NCBI GenBank assembly: GCA_017302015.1
Contig: JAFLEE010000040.1
Location: forward strand, 1-44,302
Origin: Spirochaetota bacterium
GTDB lineage: Bacteria; Spirochaetota; UBA12135; COTS27; JAFLEE01
Reading direction: 5' to 3'
Length of the DNA stretch: 44,302 bases
The notes under the pieces were generated by a model. It was not told the DNA's origin and did not search any database. It saw only the letters and a list, made by a program, of their open reading frames with translations. Below are positions 25,115 to 44,302 of the stretch, piece after piece. Position 1 is the stretch's first letter. Every line of letters starts with the position of its first letter. The position numbers and the translations under genes are program-made.

Positions 25115-26317
25115 ATGCGCCTCCGGGCCCCCCCGCTCATCCTTTTCGGGCTCCTCGCGATCTGGAGCCCCGCCCAGGATACGAACCGCTCCACCCTGCG
25201 TTTCCGGGTCGTGCCGAACCTCGGCTTCACGCCCGATACGGGATGGCGCCTCGGGGCCACGGCTAGGTGGACGGGCTACGACCCCGGCTCGGAGCGCTAC
25301 CGATGGGCGCTGCGCCTCGATCTCACGGGAACCACCCTCGAGCAATTCATCCCCGCCGTCGAACTCGATCTGGCCCGGCTCCCCGGCCTGCGCCGGCCCT
25401 GGCGGCTCCTGAGTTCCCTCCGCATCCGGGTCCATCCCAACGAACCTTTTACGGGCTTCGGCAATAGCGATTTTGAAACCGGTTTTTCCCCTCGGGTGGA
25501 CCCTTCCTTCTATACCTACGGCAAGGCCTACGGGCGCCTCATGAGCACGGCGTTCTTCCCCCTTCGGGGCGACCTCCACGTGACGGGCAGCCAATGGACC
25601 CTTGCCGGGGGCCTCTCCGGGGAATGGGGCGCGTTCGCGGAATCCCGGTCCAATACCGCCTTCGGCCGGATAGGTCCCCTTTTCGTGGGTGCCCCCATCG
25701 GCTCGGGGGGCGGGGCCTGGCTCGGGGCGCGCCTCGGGCTCCTCTACGATAGCCGGGATGTGCCCCTTTATGCGCGCCGGGGCGTGGCCGCCGAAATTTG
25801 GTGGGAGGAGAACTTCGGGCCCGTCGGGCCCCTCCCCCGGGAAAGCCGGCGGTTCACCGCCGCCTTCAAGTTCTACCTCCCCTTCCTGCGTTCCTTCGTG
25901 CTCGCCAATCGCCTCACGGCGGATCTCCTCTTCGGGGAAGTCCCCTTCTTCATGGAGGAGCGCACGGGGGGGGAACGGGAACTCTCCGGGCCCGGGGGGG
26001 TCGATACCCTGCGCGGCATGCCCCTCCACCGCGTGAAGGGGCCGGCGAAGGCCATCATGAATACGGAACTCCGATTCCATATCCCGTGGACCGACCTGCG
26101 CCTCTTCAAGGCCGTGTGGCAATGGGAACTGGCGCTGTTCACCGATAACGGCCGCGTCTGGCAGGCCGCGGATCCCCTCAGCTTCGAGGGCCTCCATACG
26201 ACCTACGGGGGAAGCCTGCGACTACTGTGGGGACGGGATTTCGTCGTGACCCTGGAGCTCGCCTGGTGGCGGGGGCTATTCGGCGGGACCTATTTCACCG
26301 TCGGCCAGGCATTCTGA
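25115..26317 (+). CDS. Omp85/BamA-type surface-antigen barrel without POTRA domains
   Basis: A 400-residue outer-membrane protein. A signal peptide (RLRAPPLILFGLLAIWSPAQ) leads straight into barrel strands, so the POTRA repeats that normally precede Omp85 barrels are missing. Barrel evidence: GWRLGATARWTGY, LLSSLRIRVHPN, GAWLGARLGLLYDSRDVP (a typical D15 'YDTRD' strand), FTAAFKFYLPF, the GVDTLRGMPLHRVKG loop resembling the conserved L6 VRGF/Y motif, and a final ELAWWRGLFGGTYFTVGQAF strand ending in F. It may act as a barrel-type pore or a patatin-less surface antigen. It ends one base from the convergent gene. Confidence 0.82.
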   Translation: MRLRAPPLILFGLLAIWSPAQDTNRSTLRFRVVPNLGFTPDTGWRLGATARWTGYDPGSERYRWALRLDLTGTTLEQFIPAVELDLARLPGLRRPWRLLSSLRIRVHPNEPFTGFGNSDFETGFSPRVDPSFYTYGKAYGRLMSTAFFPLRGDLHVTGSQWTLAGGLSGEWGAFAESRSNTAFGRIGPLFVGAPIGSGGGAWLGARLGLLYDSRDVPLYARRGVAAEIWWEENFGPVGPLPRESRRFTAAFKFYLPFLRSFVLANRLTADLLFGEVPFFMEERTGGERELSGPGGVDTLRGMPLHRVKGPAKAIMNTELRFHIPWTDLRLFKAVWQWELALFTDNGRVWQAADPLSFEGLHTTYGGSLRLLWGRDFVVTLELAWWRGLFGGTYFTVGQAF

Positions 26318-34378: not shown

Positions 34379-36913
34379 TCAATCGAGGAGGCAAATTTGG
34401 CCCTTTTTCCAGCCTAATTTCACCGAATCCCCATCCTTCACCGTCCCCTCCAGGATCGCCTGGGCGAGAAAATTTCCGAGCTCGCGTTGGACGAGGCGCA
34501 CCAGGGGACGCGCCCCGTAGGCCGGATCGTAGGAGGCGCGGCAGAGTTCCGAGCGCAGCGGGGCATCCACCGAAAGTTGGATGCGCCTCGGGGCGAGGGT
34601 GGCGGCCATGCGGGCGACGAGGAGGTCGAAGATCTCCTCCATCTGCTCGGGGGCCAGTGGTTGGAACTGGATGATCTCGTCGATGCGGTTTAGGAACTCG
34701 GGACGGAAGGCGGCCTTGAGGTCTTCCTGGGGGATATTGCCGGTCATGATGAGCACGGCGTTGCGGAAATCCACCGTGACGCCCTTGCTGTCGGTGAGGC
34801 GCCCCTCGTCGAACACTTGCAGCAGCAGGTTCCAGACTTCTGGGTGCGCCTTCTCGATCTCGTCGAAGAGCACCACCGAGTACGGCCGGCGCCGGATGGC
34901 CTCGGTGAGCACGCCGCCCTCTTCGTAGCCGACGTAGCCGGGGGGCGCCCCGATGAGGCGGCTGACGGAGTGCTTCTCCATGAACTCGCTCATGTCGATG
35001 CGCGTGAGGAGTTTCTCGTCGTCGAAGAGTTGGCGCGCCACCGTCTTGGCCAATTCGGTCTTCCCCACGCCCGTGGGCCCGAGGAAGAGGAAGACGCCCA
35101 CGGGGCGCCCCTCGGCGCCGACGCCGGCGCGGTTCCTGCGGATGGCGTCGCTGACGAGGCGCACCGCCGCGTCCTGCCCCACCACGTGGCGGCGCATCTC
35201 CCCCTCCATGCCCAGGATCTTGTGCTTCTCGGATTCCTTGAGGCGCTGCACGGGGATGCCCGTCCAGCGGGAGACCACCTGGCCGATGTCCTCCTCCGTG
35301 ACTTCCTTCTTGAGGAGGGAATCCTCCCCCCCGCGGGCCGCCGCCATCTGCTGGTCGAGGCGCTTTTGGAGTTCGGGGATCTTCCCGTAGCGGATCTCCG
35401 CCACCGCGCTTAAGTCCCCCTTCTGGGTGAGGCGCTCCTCCTCCCGATGCAGGCCCTCCAATTCTTCCTTGAGGCGGTGGATTTCCCCGTGGCGGCGGCG
35501 CTCGTTTTCCCACTGGAGCCGAAGGCCGGTGAGGGAGGTCTGGACCTCGGCCTTCTGTCGCTGGAGTTCATCGATTTTCTGCGTGATTTCGGCGGATTTC
35601 GCGCCTTTTTCGAACTCGGTCTCGCGCTGGAGGCCGCGGAGTTCGATCTCGATCTGCTGGAGTTTGCGCTCCTTTTCATCCAGGCTCTCGGGCATGCTCT
35701 CGATCTCGGTCTTGAGCCGGGCCGCGGCTTCGTCCACCAGGTCGATGGCCTTGTCGGGCAGGAAGCGGCCGGTGATGTAGCGGTTTGAGAGCACGGCCGC
35801 GGCCTTGAGGGCCTCGTCGAGGATGGTGATGCCGTGGTGGATCTCGTACTTTTCCCGGATGCCCCGCAGGATGGAGATCGTGTCCTCCACCGAGGGCTCG
35901 GGCACGGGGATGGGTTGGAGGCGGCGCTCGAGGGCGGCGTCTTTCTCGATGTACTTGCGGTATTCGTCGGTGGTCGTGGCGCCGATGACGCGGAGTTCGC
36001 CCCGGGCCAACGCGGGTTTCAGGAGGTTGGAGGCGTCCATGGCCCCGTCGGCCTTGCCGGCCCCCACGAGGGTATGGATCTCGTCGATGAAGAGCACGAG
36101 GCGCCCGGCGCTCTTCTCGGCCTGTTGGATGACGGCCTTGAGTCGCTCCTCGAACTCCCCCCGGAACTTCGCCCCGGCGATGAGGAGCCCCATGTCGAGG
36201 GAGAGCAGTTCGCATTTCTTGAGGCTCTCGGGAACGTCGCCCCGGGAGATGCGCCGGGCGAGGCCCTCCGCGATCGCGGTCTTTCCGACGCCGGGTTCCC
36301 CGATGAGCACGGGGTTGTTCTTCGTGCGGCGGGAGAGCACCTGCACCACGCGGCGGATCTCGTCGTCGCGCCCGATGACCGGATCGATGCCGTCGCGGCG
36401 GGCCAGCGCCGTGAGGTTCCTCGTGTACTTCTCCAGCGCGCCGCCGACCCCTTCTCCCCCGCCCTCCCCCTTCTCGCCGCCGGACTTTGCGCGGCCGAGG
36501 GCCGCCGTGAGGTCTTCCTTGCGCAGGCGATTGCGGTGGAAATAGTCGCGGGCCTTATTGTCGACCTCGAAGAGGCCCAGGAGCACGTGCTCGACGGAGA
36601 GGTATTCCTCGCCGGCGCGCTTGGCCTCGTCTTCCGCGGTCAGGAGCACCTTATAGAACGCCCTGGAGAGGCCGGCCTTCACTTGGGTCCCCTGGGTGCG
36701 GGGGAGTTTCTCGAGTTCGGCGCGCAGGAAGGCCTGGAAGGCCGCCACAGAGATGGGCGTTCCCGTCAGTAATTGGCCCACCAGGGGCACCTCCTCGAGG
36801 GCGGCGGCCAGGAAATGCAGTTCGGTGAGTTCGGGGTGGTCGGCGAGGGTCGCCTTCTTCTCCGCCGCCGCGAGCGTGGCGAGGAGGCTTTCCGAAAACT
36901 TTTCTTGGTTCAT
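34379..36913 (-). CDS. clpB: ATP-dependent disaggregase ClpB
   Basis: Hsp100 chaperone of 844 residues. With DnaK it threads aggregated proteins through its hexamer. The N-domain has two repeats (1-145), then a long Gly/Glu-rich linker (about 144-160). NBD1 has Walker A GEPGVGKT at 205-212 and Walker [12 protein letters not shown]; the coiled-coil middle domain (about 400-525) is present and separates it from ClpA/ClpC. NBD2 carries [28 protein letters not shown] and a C-terminal D2 small domain. ATG at 36913 has an AAAGGG site. A sigma-54 consensus lies 70 bp upstream. No CIRCE element is visible. Confidence 0.97.
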
Positions 36914-37301: not shown

Positions 37302-40300
37302 CTAGCGGGTGATCACCAGTTTGAAGTATTTTTCGGTGTGGGGCTCGGAGGACTGGAGGAGGATGAAATAGAGCCCCGCCGGGAGTTCGCGACCCTGGGC
37401 GTCGCGGCTTTGGAAATGGAGGGATTGCAGGCCCTCCTGGCGGATCACCACGACCTGCCGACGCAGGATGCGCCCGCCCAGATCGTGCACCAGCACGCTC
37501 ACCGTCTGGCCGATTTGCCCGCGGAAATAGAGGTCGAGGTCTTGGCCCTTGCGGATCGGGTTCTGGGTGAGGGTCGGGCCGCCGGAGAATTGGTCGATGA
37601 GGGCCTCGATATTGGAGGCCGGGACGTCGTAGAGGTCGAGGGAAATCCAGCCGTCAGAGGGGGCCTGGACGTCGCGCTTGGCCCGCTCGCCCTCGTTCAT
37701 GCCGCCGAGGTAGGCCGAAGCCACGTAGCGGCCCATGCCCGAGCCCGCCCGGTAGAGCGCCCGGAACTCGTTGCTTCCCGCGGGATCCATCGTCAGATCC
37801 TTCTGGAAATTGCTATTGCTATGGGCGTAGCGCAGGAAGACGAACGTGGGCAGGGTGCCCGCGGCGTTGGAGTAGGCGTCATTCGCCCACAGGCGGTTGG
37901 TGAGGTCGGTGGCCACCGTCCCTCCGATGGGTTCGACGGCGAAGAAGGAGGTATCGGGGACGGCGACCCCGCCGCTGACGGAGAGGGGCAGATTGGTGAG
38001 GTTCGTCGCCGAGGCCACCGTGAGCACCTGGGTCCCGCTCTTCACGGCGGTCAACATCACGTTGCTGGCGATCCCGGCGGTGAAGTTGATCGATGCCCAC
38101 GCGCCCTGGGCCGCCCCGCCCACGGCCGGGAGGTCGCCCTTGGGCGACAAGCCGAGCCCCGCGAACACGAGGGGGACGGCCCCGTTGGTCATCAGGCGAT
38201 TGGTGAACTGGTCGAAGAGGGTGAGGTGGAAGGGCGCGGCCACGCCCGCCACCAGATTGCTGGCGGGGGCCTCGAGAGCGGCGAATTGCAGGTGGTAACT
38301 GGTCGCATTGGTGACCTGGAGGTTGGTCGCATGGACGTTGGAGAACCACCCGGCGGCGTTCGTCAGGCTGAGGCGCAGGTCGTAGGTGCCGTTGGTGAGG
38401 GCGGTGGTGTCCCACGGCCAGGTCCAATTGCTGCCGGCCAGGCTCCCCAGTATCGACGCGCGCGCGACGGGCGTCCCGAGGGAGAGGACTTCGATGACGA
38501 GCTGGGTCGCCGGCGAGAAACTATCGGCGTAGCCGGCGATGACGGCCACATTCGAGACGTTGGAGTTCGGCACCGACGGGGCGAACCCGGCGGGCGGGCG
38601 CGTCAGTTCGAAGAGGTTGGTCTGGGAATTGGAGACCCCTCCGGTCCCGTTGGTGGCCAGGATCCAGAACGCGTTGGTGGTGCGGTTGAGGCCGATCCAA
38701 TTGCCGCTATTGGTGCTCCAGGCGGCCGTGCCGAGGGGGGGCCGCCAGGGGCCGGCGGCATTCGTGGCGAACAGCACGGAAAGGAGCGGGGCGGGAGCGC
38801 TCGTGGCCGTCCCGGAAACGGGCTCCGAGGCGTTGGTGATCCAGGCCATGGGGGCCGGCGCGGTAAAGAGGATGGTGGCCGGGCTATTGCTGACGTAGAG
38901 CGTGGGAGTGGTGATTTGGACCAGGCCCGCCGCGTTGGAGAGGCGCATTTGGAAGGGCATCGGGCCATTGGGCAGGAGGGTGGTATCGAGGGTCAGGATC
39001 CAAGCCGCATTGGTGTTGCTGGCGGCGCTCGTCCAAGTGGCGCCCCCATTGGTCGACCATTCCCAACCGAGGAGGGCGCTCTCGGGCTCCCGGTTCGTGC
39101 CCTGGAAGACGAAATTACCCCACGCGGTGCCGGCGGGGCCCGGATTGGTGACGAAGGCGGTGGCGCCCGTATTGTCGATGACGTTGGTGAAGAGCAGGTT
39201 ATTCGTCACGAAATTGGTGGAGACCGCCCGGAAGGTGAATACGTTCGTCCCGTCGGGCAGAAGACTCGTGTCGATGGGGATCGCCCAGTTCGTGCCCAGG
39301 CCGCTCCAGGCGAAGGCGGCATTCGTCCAGATTTCCACGCGCTGGTTGTCGTAGCCGGCGAACGCGTTCGTCGCGACGCCCCGGAAGGTATAAGTGCCCG
39401 TCAGGAGAGCGAAGGGCGCGGTGTTGGTCACCGACAAGACGGGCGCGAGGCGGTTGAGCCAGACCTTGACCGTCGCCGTGTTGGTCATGAGCCCGGCGCC
39501 GTTGGTGGTCTCCGTCCACAGCCAATAGGGGCCCTCCGGGAGCGCGGAAACGTTCCAGCCATTGCTGAATCCGGAGCCGCCGACCGGCACCATCGCCAGG
39601 GATCCCGCGCCCGAGAGGTTGCTCAGGCGAACGAAGGTGGTCAAGATCCCGGAGTGGGGATCGGCGTTCGTCCCGGTCAGCACGTGCCATCCCGTCGCCG
39701 AATTGAGGAATTGCCCCATGGCGAGGTTGGTCAGCGCCACCGCCGCCGGGCTATTGTCTACCACCACCGAGAGGTTCGTCAGCCCGTAGGGGAAGCCCGC
39801 CGCGTTCGTCGCCCGCACCGCGAACACCTGCGCCCCGTCGACGAAAGCCGTCGTGTCCAGGTTCGTCGCCCCGTTGCTCGTGGCCATCGCCATCGCCGCC
39901 CAACCGCCCGCCGTCGCGGCATTGCTCACGAACATCGCCGAATTGGGGGCGGTCACGAAGCCGGTGAGCATCGTCACCCCGCTGACATACTGGCCGTTGG
40001 TCGGTTTCAGCGTCGCCAAGGCGCCCGTGAAATTATTGAACAGGAGGTTCGTGGCGAAGATCAGGTTCGACCAACCCGCCTGGTTGGACACCGAGAGGCG
40101 AAGGTCGTACCAACCCAAGGCATAGGGAGTCGTGTCCAGGTTCGTCGCCCACGCCCCGTTCTGCGCCGGCAATTGGTAATTGCTGCGCACCGCGCCGTTG
40201 GTCAGGACCGAGAGTTGGAGGAAGGTGATCGGATCCATCGCGATCTCGGTCACCACGCCGCCCAAGTTGGTCGTCCCGGTGAAACTTGCGTTGTCCCAGA

Positions 40301-43300
40301 CGGCGTTCCAGGCGAGGGCCGGCGGGGTGAGGTCGATGCGGTTCGTCAGCCAATTCGTCGCCGCCCCGCCGCTTTGGTTGGAAGCGATGATCCAGAAGAC
40401 ATTGGTGCGGTCCGCGAGCCCCGTGAGGTTCACATTGGTGCTCCAGTTCGTCGTCCCGGACACCGCGGCGAAAGCGTTATTATTGGTCCCGAACACCACC
40501 GAAGCCAGCGCGACCCCCGAATTGGAGGCCCAACCCGAGAACACCACGCTGGCGTTGGTCAACCATTGCAGGTTGGTGGCATTGGTGATCGCCACGCTCG
40601 CCGCCCCCGCATTGGAAAGGAAGACATTCGTATGCAGCAGGAAGGCCCCCAAGCCGGCCGCATTGGACGCCGTGAGGCGTAAATCGTACATCCCGTCCGC
40701 GTAGCCCGCCGTATTGATGTTGGTGGCCCAATTGCTCGCCAGAGCGGAGAGATCCCATCCAACGACCTCGATCCCGTTGGTCACCAGACCCAAGCGCCGG
40801 AAAGTCACCGGGGCGAAGGGATCCCCCGCCGTGCCGGCGAGGTTCGTCAGGCCGTTCAGCACCCCGTTGGAGTAGGCGGCCGCGAAACTCAGCGCCGGGG
40901 GGGTGAGGTCGATGAGGTTGGTCACGACGTTGCTCGCGCCCTTCCCCGCCGCGTTGGAGACCAGGATCCAGAAGGCATTGGTCGTATTGGCCAGGTTGCT
41001 CACGTTCAGGTTGGTCGACCAGACCCCCGCGATCGCCGGCGCCGCCCAGGGACCCGAGGCGTTCGTGGCGAACCAGACCCCCGTCAGCGGCGCGGGGGCG
41101 CTGGAGGCCCCTCCGGTATAGGACTCGATGCCGTTCGTCACCCAGGCGAAATTCGTCGGCGCCGTGATGGTGGCCGTCGGCGCGTTATTGGTTACATACA
41201 CCGTGAAGGAGGCCGAGCCCTCCAAACCGGTGGCATTGGTGCTGCGCACCTCGAGGGTGAGCGCCCCGTCGGCGTGGGAGGTCGTATCCAGGGCGAGGAA
41301 CCAAGCGCTATTGGTATTGGACAGCGCCGTCGTCCAGGTCGCGCCGCCGTTGGTCGACCATTTCCAACCCTTGAGGAAGGACACGTTCTCCGCGTTCGTC
41401 CCGGCGAAGACCGCGCTGCCCCACACCGTGGCGCTATTGGTCGGGTTGGTCAGGAAGGTCAGCGCCGCGGTGTTGTCGATGAGGTTCGTCGCCGCGTAGG
41501 TATTGGTGCGGAAGTTCGACGAGATCGCCCGGAACGTGAACACGTTCGTCCCGTCCGGGAGAAGCGTCGTGTCGTAGGGGAGCACCCAATTCGTGTTGGT
41601 GGCCCCCGTCACCACGTTCCCGCCGTTGGTCGCCAGGTGCACGAAGGGCGGATCGAAGATCTTGGCCCCGTTGGTGGCCAGACCGCGGAAGGACCAGGTG
41701 CCCGAGATCCAGGCGAACGCCGCCGTATTCGTCTCCGCCACCACCGGGGCGTTCTCGTTGAGCCAGACCGAGACCGGGAGCGTGTTCGTCGCCAGGCCCG
41801 CCCCGTTCGTCGTCCCGATCCAGGCCCAGTAGGCCCCGTCGGGCAGCGCCGCCACGTTCCACGCGTTGCTCCACAGCCCCGCGCCATACGCCGCGGCCAG
41901 GTTCGTCCCAACCATCCCCGCGGCGTTGCTCAAATAGACCACCGTCTGGGAGATCCCCGAATGCGCGTCGCCGTTGGTGCCGTAGAACGTCGCCTTCCCG
42001 CCGGAGACCGCCAGGTACGCGCCCGCCGCCGGGTTCGTCAGCGCCACCGCCGCCGGGCTATTGTCCACCACCACCGATATGTTCGTCTGTCCGTAGGGCA
42101 GGCCCGCCCCGTTCGTCGCGCGGAAGGCGAACACCTGCGCCCCGTCGGCGAGCGCCGTCGTGTCGAAATTGCTGAGTCCGTTCGTGCCCGAGGTGGTCAT
42201 GGGGACCCACGCCCCCGCCGTCGCGCCGTTACTCATGAAGAAGGCCGAGTTCGGCGCCGTCACGAAGCCGGTGAGGATCGTCACCCCGCTGACGTAGGCG
42301 TTGTTCGTGGGCTGGAGCATCGCCAAGGCGCCCGAGAAGTTGTTGAACAGGATATTGGTGGCCAGCAGCCCGTTCGTCCATCCGGCCTGGTTCGACACCG
42401 TAAAACGGAGATCGTAGAAGCCCAGGGGGTAGACGCTCGTATCGAAATTGGTGGCGAAGGCGCCCGCAGCCGCCGCGAGGCTGTAATTGCTGCGAACGGC
42501 CCCGTTGGTCAACACCGACACCTGCAGGAACGTGATGGGGTCGATGGCCGCCTCGGTCACCGAGCCCGTGAGGTTCGTCGACGCCGTGAACGTCGCGTTG
42601 TTCCAGGCCGCCGCCAGAGAGAGCCCCGGAGGGGTGAGGTCGATGCGGTTGGTCAGCACGTTCGTCGCCGTCTTTCCGGCGGCGTTGCTCGCCACCACGT
42701 AGAACACGTTCGTAAGCCCGTCCACCGGCCCCATGGCCAGGGTCGTGCTCCAATTGGTCGTCCCCGTCGCCGGGGCGAGGGCGGCGAGGTTGCTCCCGAA
42801 GAGCACCGTGGACAGTTGGAAACCCGCATTCGAGGCCCAACCTGCGAAATACTGGTTCGCATTAGTGACCCACTGCAGGTTCGTCAGGTTCGTGATGGCT
42901 GCCACCGGCACGCCGGCATTCGAGAGGAAGAGGTTCGTTTGGAGGAGATTCGCCCCCAGGCCCGCCGCGTTCGTCGCCGTCAATCGGAGGTTGTAAGTCC
43001 CGTCGGCGAGCAGCGCCGTATCGATGTTCGTCGCCCAGTTCGTCGAAAGCGCCGTGAGGTCGAACGAGGCGATTTCCACCCCGTTGGTCTCGAAGGCGAG
43101 GCGGCGCAGCGTCACCGGGGCGAAGGGATCCCCCGCCGTGCCGGCGAGGTTCGTCAGGCCGTTCAGCACCCCGTTGGAGTAGGCGGCCGCGAAACTCAGC
43201 GCCGGGGGGGTGAGATCGATGAGGTTGGTCACGACGTTGCTCGCGCCCTTCCCCGCCGCGTTGGAGACCAGGATCCAGAAGGCATTGGTCGTATTGGCCA

Positions 43301-44302
43301 GATTGCTCACGTTCAGGTTGGTCGACCAGACCCCCGCGATCGCCGGCGCGGCCCAGGGACCCGAGGCGTTCGTGGCGAACCAGACCCCCGTCAGCGGCGC
43401 GGGGGCGCTGGAGGCCCCTCCGGTATAGGACTCGATGCCGTTCGTCACCCAGGCGAAATTCGTCGGCGCCGTGATGGTGGCCGTCGGCGCGTTATTGGTT
43501 ACATACACCGTGAAGGAGGCCGAGCCCTCCAAACCGGTGGCATTGGTGCTGCGCACCTCGAGGGTGAGCGCCCCGTCGGCGTGGGAGGTCGTATCCAGGG
43601 CGAGGAACCAAGCGCTATTGGTATTGGACAGCGCCGTCGTCCAGGTCGCGCCGCCGTTGGTCGACCATTTCCAACCCTTGAGGAAGGACACGTTCTCCGC
43701 GTTCGTCCCGGCGAAGACCGCGCTGCCCCACACCGTGGCGCTATTGGTCGGGTTGGTCAGGAAGGTCAGCGCCGCGGTGTTGTCGATGAGGTTCGTCGCC
43801 GCGTAGGTATTGGTGCGGAAGTTCGACGAGATCGCCCGGAACGTGAACACGTTCGTCCCGTCCGGGAGAAGCGTCGTGTCGTAGGGGAGCACCCAATTCG
43901 TGTTGGTGGCCCCCGTCACCACGTTCCCGCCGTTGGTCGCCAGGTGCACGAAGGGCGGATCGAAGATCTTGGCCCCGTTGGTGGCCAGACCGCGGAAGGA
44001 CCAGGTGCCCGAGATCCAGGCGAACGCCGCCGTATTCGTCTCCGCCACCACCGGGGCGTTCTCGTTGAGCCAGACCGAGACCGGGAGCGTGTTCGTCGCC
44101 AGGCCCGCCCCGTTCGTCGTCCCGATCCAGGCCCAGTAGGCCCCGTCGGGCAGCGCCGCCACGTTCCACGCGTTGCTCCACAGCCCCGCGCCATACGCCG
44201 CGGCCAGGTTCGTCCCAACCATCCCCGCGGCGTTGCTCAAATAGACCACCGTCTGGGAGATCCCCGAATGCGCGTCGCCGTTGGTGCCGTAGAACGTCGC
44301 CT
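37302..44302 (-). CDS. giant Thr-Asn-rich Ig-like repeat surface protein with FlgD/type-IX-like tail (partial)
   Basis: More than 2,330 codons are open and the frame runs off the right edge, so the N-terminus is missing. The protein is built of Ig-like beta-sandwich modules of about 75-90 residues, each with strings such as TNLIDLTPPALS, STNGGATWT, DTTLLPDGTNVFTFRA and VVDNSPAAVALTN. Thr-Asn dipeptides occur about five times per 100 residues. A higher-order unit of 769 residues recurs: two near-identical copies and a diverged third. The last 90 residues (VSVLVHDLGGRILRRQVVV, then RDAQGRELPAGLYFILLQS, ending KYFKLVITR) fit the FlgD-Ig/type IX sorting-domain pattern. Likely a secreted or surface adhesin. 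No catalytic motif was seen. Confidence 0.9.
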   Translation of the reverse strand, partial: ATFYGTNGDAHSGISQTVVYLSNAAGMVGTNLAAAYGAGLWSNAWNVAALPDGAYWAWIGTTNGAGLATNTLPVSVWLNENAPVVAETNTAAFAWISGTWSFRGLATNGAKIFDPPFVHLATNGGNVVTGATNTNWVLPYDTTLLPDGTNVFTFRAISSNFRTNTYAATNLIDNTAALTFLTNPTNSATVWGSAVFAGTNAENVSFLKGWKWSTNGGATWTTALSNTNSAWFLALDTTSHADGALTLEVRSTNATGLEGSASFTVYVTNNAPTATITAPTNFAWVTNGIESYTGGASSAPAPLTGVWFATNASGPWAAPAIAGVWSTNLNVSNLANTTNAFWILVSNAAGKGASNVVTNLIDLTPPALSFAAAYSNGVLNGLTNLAGTAGDPFAPVTLRRLAFETNGVEIASFDLTALSTNWATNIDTALLADGTYNLRLTATNAAGLGANLLQTNLFLSNAGVPVAAITNLTNLQWVTNANQYFAGWASNAGFQLSTVLFGSNLAALAPATGTTNWSTTLAMGPVDGLTNVFYVVASNAAGKTATNVLTNRIDLTPPGLSLAAAWNNATFTASTNLTGSVTEAAIDPITFLQVSVLTNGAVRSNYSLAAAAGAFATNFDTSVYPLGFYDLRFTVSNQAGWTNGLLATNILFNNFSGALAMLQPTNNAYVSGVTILTGFVTAPNSAFFMSNGATAGAWVPMTTSGTNGLSNFDTTALADGAQVFAFRATNGAGLPYGQTNISVVVDNSPAAVALTNPAAGAYLAVSGGKATFYGTNGDAHSGISQTVVYLSNAAGMVGTNLAAAYGAGLWSNAWNVAALPDGAYWAWIGTTNGAGLATNTLPVSVWLNENAPVVAETNTAAFAWISGTWSFRGLATNGAKIFDPPFVHLATNGGNVVTGATNTNWVLPYDTTLLPDGTNVFTFRAISSNFRTNTYAATNLIDNTAALTFLTNPTNSATVWGSAVFAGTNAENVSFLKGWKWSTNGGATWTTALSNTNSAWFLALDTTSHADGALTLEVRSTNATGLEGSASFTVYVTNNAPTATITAPTNFAWVTNGIESYTGGASSAPAPLTGVWFATNASGPWAAPAIAGVWSTNLNVSNLANTTNAFWILVSNAAGKGASNVVTNLIDLTPPALSFAAAYSNGVLNGLTNLAGTAGDPFAPVTFRRLGLVTNGIEVVGWDLSALASNWATNINTAGYADGMYDLRLTASNAAGLGAFLLHTNVFLSNAGAASVAITNATNLQWLTNASVVFSGWASNSGVALASVVFGTNNNAFAAVSGTTNWSTNVNLTGLADRTNVFWIIASNQSGGAATNWLTNRIDLTPPALAWNAVWDNASFTGTTNLGGVVTEIAMDPITFLQLSVLTNGAVRSNYQLPAQNGAWATNLDTTPYALGWYDLRLSVSNQAGWSNLIFATNLLFNNFTGALATLKPTNGQYVSGVTMLTGFVTAPNSAMFVSNAATAGGWAAMAMATSNGATNLDTTAFVDGAQVFAVRATNAAGFPYGLTNLSVVVDNSPAAVALTNLAMGQFLNSATGWHVLTGTNADPHSGILTTFVRLSNLSGAGSLAMVPVGGSGFSNGWNVSALPEGPYWLWTETTNGAGLMTNTATVKVWLNRLAPVLSVTNTAPFALLTGTYTFRGVATNAFAGYDNQRVEIWTNAAFAWSGLGTNWAIPIDTSLLPDGTNVFTFRAVSTNFVTNNLLFTNVIDNTGATAFVTNPGPAGTAWGNFVFQGTNREPESALLGWEWSTNGGATWTSAASNTNAAWILTLDTTLLPNGPMPFQMRLSNAAGLVQITTPTLYVSNSPATILFTAPAPMAWITNASEPVSGTATSAPAPLLSVLFATNAAGPWRPPLGTAAWSTNSGNWIGLNRTTNAFWILATNGTGGVSNSQTNLFELTRPPAGFAPSVPNSNVSNVAVIAGYADSFSPATQLVIEVLSLGTPVARASILGSLAGSNWTWPWDTTALTNGTYDLRLSLTNAAGWFSNVHATNLQVTNATSYHLQFAALEAPASNLVAGVAAPFHLTLFDQFTNRLMTNGAVPLVFAGLGLSPKGDLPAVGGAAQGAWASINFTAGIASNVMLTAVKSGTQVLTVASATNLTNLPLSVSGGVAVPDTSFFAVEPIGGTVATDLTNRLWANDAYSNAAGTLPTFVFLRYAHSNSNFQKDLTMDPAGSNEFRALYRAGSGMGRYVASAYLGGMNEGERAKRDVQAPSDGWISLDLYDVPASNIEALIDQFSGGPTLTQNPIRKGQDLDLYFRGQIGQTVSVLVHDLGGRILRRQVVVIRQEGLQSLHFQSRDAQGRELPAGLYFILLQSSEPHTEKYFKLVITR
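38495..39690 (-). repeat. diverged third copy of the module in the giant gene
   Basis: Approximate bounds. The protein here (TGTNADPHSGI..., LPEGPYWLWTETTNGAGL, LLPDGTNVFTFRA, GWEWSTNGGATW, SAPAPLLSVLFATNAAGPW) aligns in order with the two near-identical copies but with many substitutions and small gaps, at the same spacing of about 2,300 bp. Confidence 0.75.
40804..41995 (-). repeat. near-identical direct repeat, inner copy
   Basis: Matches 43111-44302 at a constant offset of 2,307 bp. By eye I found only three differences (40908/43215, 40995/43302, 41043/43350), all silent. Identity begins sharply at 40804; on the C-terminal side the two copies differ greatly. Confidence 0.92.
43111..44302 (-). 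repeat. near-identical direct repeat, outer copy (runs off the window)
   Basis: Partner of 40804-41995 and still identical at the window edge, so its true length is at least 1,192 bp and may reach the full 2,307-bp period or more. More copies may lie outside the window. Confidence 0.92.

Follow-up and report, generated by a model that had tools for sequence, protein, structure and literature searches.

We present here a giant Thr-Asn-rich repeat protein encoded by an uncultured spirochaete which, on balance, probably reaches the cell surface by a diverged and partial type-IX-like route and acts there as a stalk or adhesin. Export, anchoring and the adhesin role are what we infer, building on features that were observed, namely Ig-like modules, a register of Thr/Ser-Asn pairs within them, a C-terminal tail assigned to a superfamily, homology to SprA and PorV, and tail-PorV gene pairs. 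In the proposed route, the giant would be made with a Sec signal peptide (its own N-terminus lies off the contig, but such a peptide seems to be present on several sister proteins), would cross the outer membrane via a diverged SprA/Sov-like channel, and would be retained on the cell surface by a PorV-family barrel that recognises its FlgD-Ig/CTD-like tail. The Ig modules would form a long, near-neutral chain, with Thr/Ser-Asn pairs marking turns and strand ends.

The window, i.e. the whole stretch of DNA analysed, is the entire 44,302-bp contig (G000:C101), which terminates within the giant gene (Table 1). On the minus strand, a frame of 2,332 codons (44300..37302) is already open at the contig end and meets its stop at 37302; its visible product contains no Cys. 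No start codon is found in the window because the contig terminates inside the gene, cutting its 5' end. A preliminary description, made from the sequence alone, had proposed a 769-residue repeat unit, and this was confirmed with 46% identity at a lag of 769, the next best lag giving 22%. Each unit consists of eight Ig-like modules of 93-102 residues, and 21 modules were aligned in total. The contig probably breaks in a repeat at its end, so that the total number of units and the N-terminus of the giant lie beyond it. An exact repeat of 952 bp terminating the contig and an N-terminus out of view might also be expected of a broken or misassembled repeat gene without a working giant protein. We consider this highly improbable, since the 2,332 codons are uninterrupted by a stop, the modules have diverged in protein sequence yet kept their register, codon use tracks that of host housekeeping genes (r 0.91), and several similar genes are present elsewhere in the genome. 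When the giant itself was used as the query against genome contigs, three pattern matches were returned, with no confirmed relatives.

Table 1. Features of the giant gene and its surroundings in the window (44,302 bp)
Feature	Position	Strand	Description
Giant repeat protein ORF	37302..44302	-	2,332 aa seen, 5' end cut
First complete 769-aa unit, eight Ig-like modules	41763..44069	-	Residues 78-846; module alignment, coordinates converted from residue numbers
Second unit, eight Ig-like modules	39459..41762	-	Residues 847-1614; module alignment
Partial third unit, four modules	38316..39458	-	Residues 1615-1995; module alignment
Non-repeat region preceding the tail	37578..38315	-	Residues 1996-2241; sequence
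Putative FlgD-Ig / type IX CTD-like tail	37305..37577	-	Last 91 residues; FlgD_ig and TIGR04183 below cut-off; tail profile
Exact repeat at contig end	43351..44302	.	952 bp, identical to 41044-41995, 2,307 bp further in
clpB, next gene after the giant	34379..36913	-	TIGR03346, 1,091.6 bits, under the cut-off of 1,232.1

To examine the fold, we modelled the structure of two modules, using eight aligned rows of window sequence. The model (pLDDT 76) is all-beta with an Ig-like architecture, and its matches by Foldseek and VIA-align are Ig and FN3-like domains, including SiiE and an RTX adhesin among those of Foldseek, which bears out the Ig-like modules of the preliminary description. Single modules superpose with an rmsd of about 1.9 across about 92 residues, and within one unit the eight modules share mostly 19-29% pairwise identity, with two pairs at 40-41%. 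A sequence search of the PDB using a module pair as the query found no match, and Pfam matches of the giant to Ig_N_CWD1 and a ZNF598 domain were discarded as short stretches of biased sequence. The tandem Ig-like modules characteristic of bacterial Ig-like repeat adhesins are therefore present, as judged from the 21 modules, the model and its fold matches. Like SiiE and the RTX giant Ig-repeat adhesins, whose folds it matches, the giant is a long chain of Ig-like beta-sandwich modules. Unlike these adhesins, however, it has no sequence match to PDB chains and no visible RTX or type I signal, it ends in a different tail, and it is unusually (S/T)N-rich and poor in charged residues.

Thr-Asn pairs are indeed as abundant and regularly spaced as initially claimed, with 125 in the giant compared to a mean of 29 and a maximum of 43 in 1,000 shuffles, and a mean spacing of 17 residues (median 15). 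A further 51 Ser-Asn pairs occur, and 76% of all Asn are preceded by Ser or Thr. The pairs also keep the described register within the modules: (S/T)N is found at module column 49 in 20 of the 21 modules, at column 90 in 18, at column 102 in 13, and at columns 11, 66 and 70 in 10 each. Such stacking was never equalled in circular-shift controls (0/5,000), and restricting the comparison to a single unit, whose eight modules are mutually diverged, gave the same outcome. The codons of the pairs vary, so no single DNA word accounts for the bias. In the two-module model, Asn is placed within two residues of a strand end in 15 of the 18 pairs compared to 70% for any residue, suggesting a modest strand-end tendency, and the two columns that vary least correspond to hairpin turns, with the readings ETNG and ATNAAG. 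Thus, of the exposed ladder envisaged along strand edges, the register stood, in turns and at strand ends, whereas the continuous edge did not, the most constant pairs lying in hairpin turns.

Nor is this pattern special to the giant, since the same (S/T)N bias occurs in other large tail-bearing proteins. Relative to expectation, Thr-Asn reaches 4.4x in the giant and 2.6 to 4.8x in seven other large tail-bearing proteins of the same genome, as against 1.1x in the housekeeping proteins of the window. It stands at 1.6x in the SprA homologue described below, and the one PorV protein measured has no Thr-Asn. In four giant frames of a genome of the same class (G003, 41-44% G+C), only two of which (C7 and C88) have their tail within the available sequence, it ranges from 1.5 to 3.3x. 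The reverse order, Asn-Thr, occurs at 0.6 to 1.6x in the biased proteins, so the order is directional, and Pro is avoided directly after an (S/T)N pair. The Thr/Ser-Asn bias is therefore a composition signature shared by this genome's large exported proteins with a tail and by most of those examined in G003; housekeeping proteins, the SprA homologue and the PorV protein measured show little or none of it. We also noted a lipoprotein-like frame overlapping the end of a tail-bearing giant gene (L059:10190-11521), in which 84% of the 19 Asn follow Ser or Thr. A functional surface pattern, in which the pairs serve as glycan acceptor sites or as a regular face binding a crystal or a partner, would fit the directionality in the giant (Asn-Thr at 0.7x), the near-absence of bias in housekeeping proteins compared to the exported class, the avoidance of Pro and the stacking in fixed columns. 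We nevertheless regard it as improbable, because Thr/Ser-Asn is also structurally expected in hairpin turns such as the most constant columns, N-X-S/T sites are infrequent (36 for 232 Asn), and no ligand or enzyme was identified.

The tail of the giant, isolated as its last 91 residues, scored 20.7 bits against FlgD_ig (PF13860, cut-off 27) and 15.9 bits against the type IX type A domain TIGR04183 (cut-off 23), reaching neither cut-off, and found no match in a PDB sequence search when used alone. Sixteen tails, of which 15 come from the same genome and one from G003, were aligned to build a profile. It matches the window tail, itself a row of the profile, at E 1.4e-21, and finds 20 places in this genome and matches in 38 of the 41 spirochaete genomes searched. 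Against the PDB, its best match is FlgD (E 2e-9), followed by the C-termini of PorZ (6e-8) and PorU (4e-6), and gingipain CTDs are matched weakly. At E up to 0.1, 14 of the 16 individual tails match TIGR04183 and 7 match CHU_C; FlgD_ig is matched by 13 of the 16. A sister tail in the genome passes the cut-off of CHU_C PF13585 (29.8 bits, cut-off 27), and Pfam Por_Secre_tail (PF18962) has no match in this genome. We take these matches to indicate that the tail is a member of the FlgD-Ig / type IX CTD superfamily, as first described, within which FlgD-Ig and CTD cannot be separated by sequence alone. It is also shared by other proteins, with about 18-20 such tails in the genome. With FlgD_ig, the Ig domain of the flagellar hook cap, the tail has in common the core motif and the best PDB match; it differs in ending giant exported proteins rather than a flagellar cap protein, and in its score below the cut-off. 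A FlgD_ig match near the N-terminus of another large frame (L060:1-3774, G000:C81; 2,858 aa in the whole contig) was not counted as a tail. With FlgD as the best match of the profile and FlgD_ig matched by most tails, the tail may instead be a generic FlgD-like Ig cap without an export role, the giant taking another route to the periplasm or surface and the SprA-like protein and PorV barrels doing other work, although the profile's matches to the C-termini of PorU and PorZ argue against this reading.

A search for SprA was positive. TIGR04189 (SprA) matched 16 of the 41 spirochaete genomes at E up to 0.1, with every match short of the cut-off. In the genome of the giant, the homologue is a 2,296-aa frame on contig C16, adjoining genes that, by reading their sequences, we take to be rseP- and dxr-like. 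When the protein was scanned whole, TIGR04189 gave 111.6 bits (E 1.9e-32), the cut-off of 200 not being reached, and such whole-protein scans matched 8 of nine spirochaete SprA copies. A profile of the nine copies searched against the whole PDB found only Flavobacterium SprA (E 1.6e-33), in collinear pieces. The base composition and codon use of the gene fit the host genome, as for a native gene. Pfam SprA_N has no match in this genome, a misleading negative given the homologue that TIGR04189 detected. The organism thus encodes a diverged SprA/Sov homologue, whose homology is clear even though the curated cut-off is not reached. We scanned contigs for relatives using a three-row alignment, since the nine-row one lacked a sufficiently conserved stretch. 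Named records with a homologue are nearly all Spirochaetota; among them are MAGs labelled Leptospiraceae and Turneriella parva, and a direct test may thus be feasible in a cultured relative. MAGs labelled Bacteroidetes, Caldithrix and Hydrogenedentota (L096, L102 and L103) also contain spirochaete-like homologues, owing to wrongly labelled bins, contamination or transfer. The genome of the giant has three FlaA (PF04620) copies over the cut-off, and FlaA occurs in 40 of the 41 genomes searched and none of the 14 controls; together with the nearly all-Spirochaetota SprA relatives, this identifies the organism as a spirochaete, as had been thought probable. The only mention of SprA in a study of T. 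pallidum is among several fold predictions for TprL that disagree with one another (PMC7864442).

PorV-family barrels were likewise found. PorV_fam (NF033709) matched 34 of the 41 genomes, 11 of them above the cut-off; the genome of the giant has 8 matched places, all below it. In this genome, a PorV-family gene lies beside a tail gene at L056, L061, L078, L079 and L080, with the PorV gene preceding the tail gene at L061, and at L054 and L064 the neighbour of the tail gene reads as barrel-like without a family match. Across the 41 genomes, 36 tail-PorV pairs within 400 bp were present among the matches listed (the best 150 tail and best 150 PorV matches), in all of which the PorV gene follows the tail gene on the same strand, and none of the pairs among these matches had the opposite order (within 400 bp) or opposite strands. 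The tail-then-PorV order is strict only among the matches listed, because these do not include the PorV place of L061. Tail and PorV counts per genome are correlated (Spearman 0.73), and both are higher in genomes where SprA was matched (P 5e-5 for tails, P 6e-4 for PorV), although these P values are optimistic because the genomes are related. Three spirochaete genomes (G014, G026 and G036) each have 64-78 tails and 40-43 PorV-family matches; G036 (78% complete), with 75 tails and 43 PorV, has no SprA match. No PorV-family gene lies next to the giant on its visible side, where clpB is found instead. Elsewhere in the window, 25115-26317 encodes an Omp85-family protein (152 bits, cut-off 200).

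The proposed search for GldL and GldM was negative, with no credible match in the genome of the giant, at low sensitivity and with no known-positive genome among those searched. For GldL, hits at E 1e-4 to 0.1 were seen in control genomes as well and were attributed to chance, as was a GldM match at E 0.008 in this genome. Peptidase_C25 (PF01364, PorU-type) gave no match in the genome (93% complete), with no positive control among the 14. These absences are weak evidence, because diverged GldL and GldM may escape detection, SprA_N also missed an SprA that is present and no known-positive genome was included. Among the 41 spirochaete genomes, the only Peptidase_C25 match is L083 in G032 (E 1.3e-48).

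Taken together, we favour a stalk or adhesin on the type-IX-like route because of the 21 Ig-like modules in register, the SprA homologue and its native codon use, PorV_fam, the tail matches, the order of the pairs and the count correlations. Against it stand the lack of a PorV neighbour of the giant on the visible side, a tail of its own below every curated cut-off, SprA and own-genome PorV matches likewise below theirs, the failure to find GldL, GldM or C25, an N-terminus and signal peptide out of view, and G036 without an SprA match. The missing GldL, GldM and PorU peptidase domain and the missing PorV neighbour would equally suit a generic FlgD-like cap, a reading that we consider unlikely given the strict order of the 36 listed pairs and the presence of the SprA homologue. 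More broadly, it is possible, and we propose it only tentatively, that Spirochaetota have a type-IX-like route with a diverged SprA, a PorV barrel beside many cargo genes, unlike in Bacteroidota, and no GldLM or PorU, for which (S/T)N-rich Ig giants and other proteins are cargo in this class.

Type IX secretion has been described as confined to Bacteroidetes (PMC4793230; PMC5445135) or to the Fibrobacteres-Chlorobi-Bacteroidetes superphylum (PMC9581022). For Spirochaetota, the literature searched, which excludes most subscription journals and all bioRxiv preprints, contained no such report. With the system of Bacteroidota, the spirochaete shares an SprA homologue, PorV-family barrels, and tails matching PorU and PorZ CTDs and TIGR04183. 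A parallel to the tail-PorV gene pairs is porU-porV in P. gingivalis, whose PorV has been proposed as the anchor of PorU (PMC5445135). Apart from the host being a spirochaete, the differences are that SprA and the own-genome PorV matches fall under the curated cut-offs, that GldL, GldM and a C25 peptidase were not found in the genome of the giant, and that PorV-family genes lie beside many cargo genes, with up to 43 PorV matches per genome. Type-IX-like surface export may therefore work in spirochaetes too. If so, SprA-based outer-membrane export with C-terminal signals would extend past Bacteroidota and allied phyla, spirochaetes would gain a candidate route for the export of surface proteins, and natural pairings of barrel and cargo genes would help to tell apart what SprA, PorV and the motor each do.
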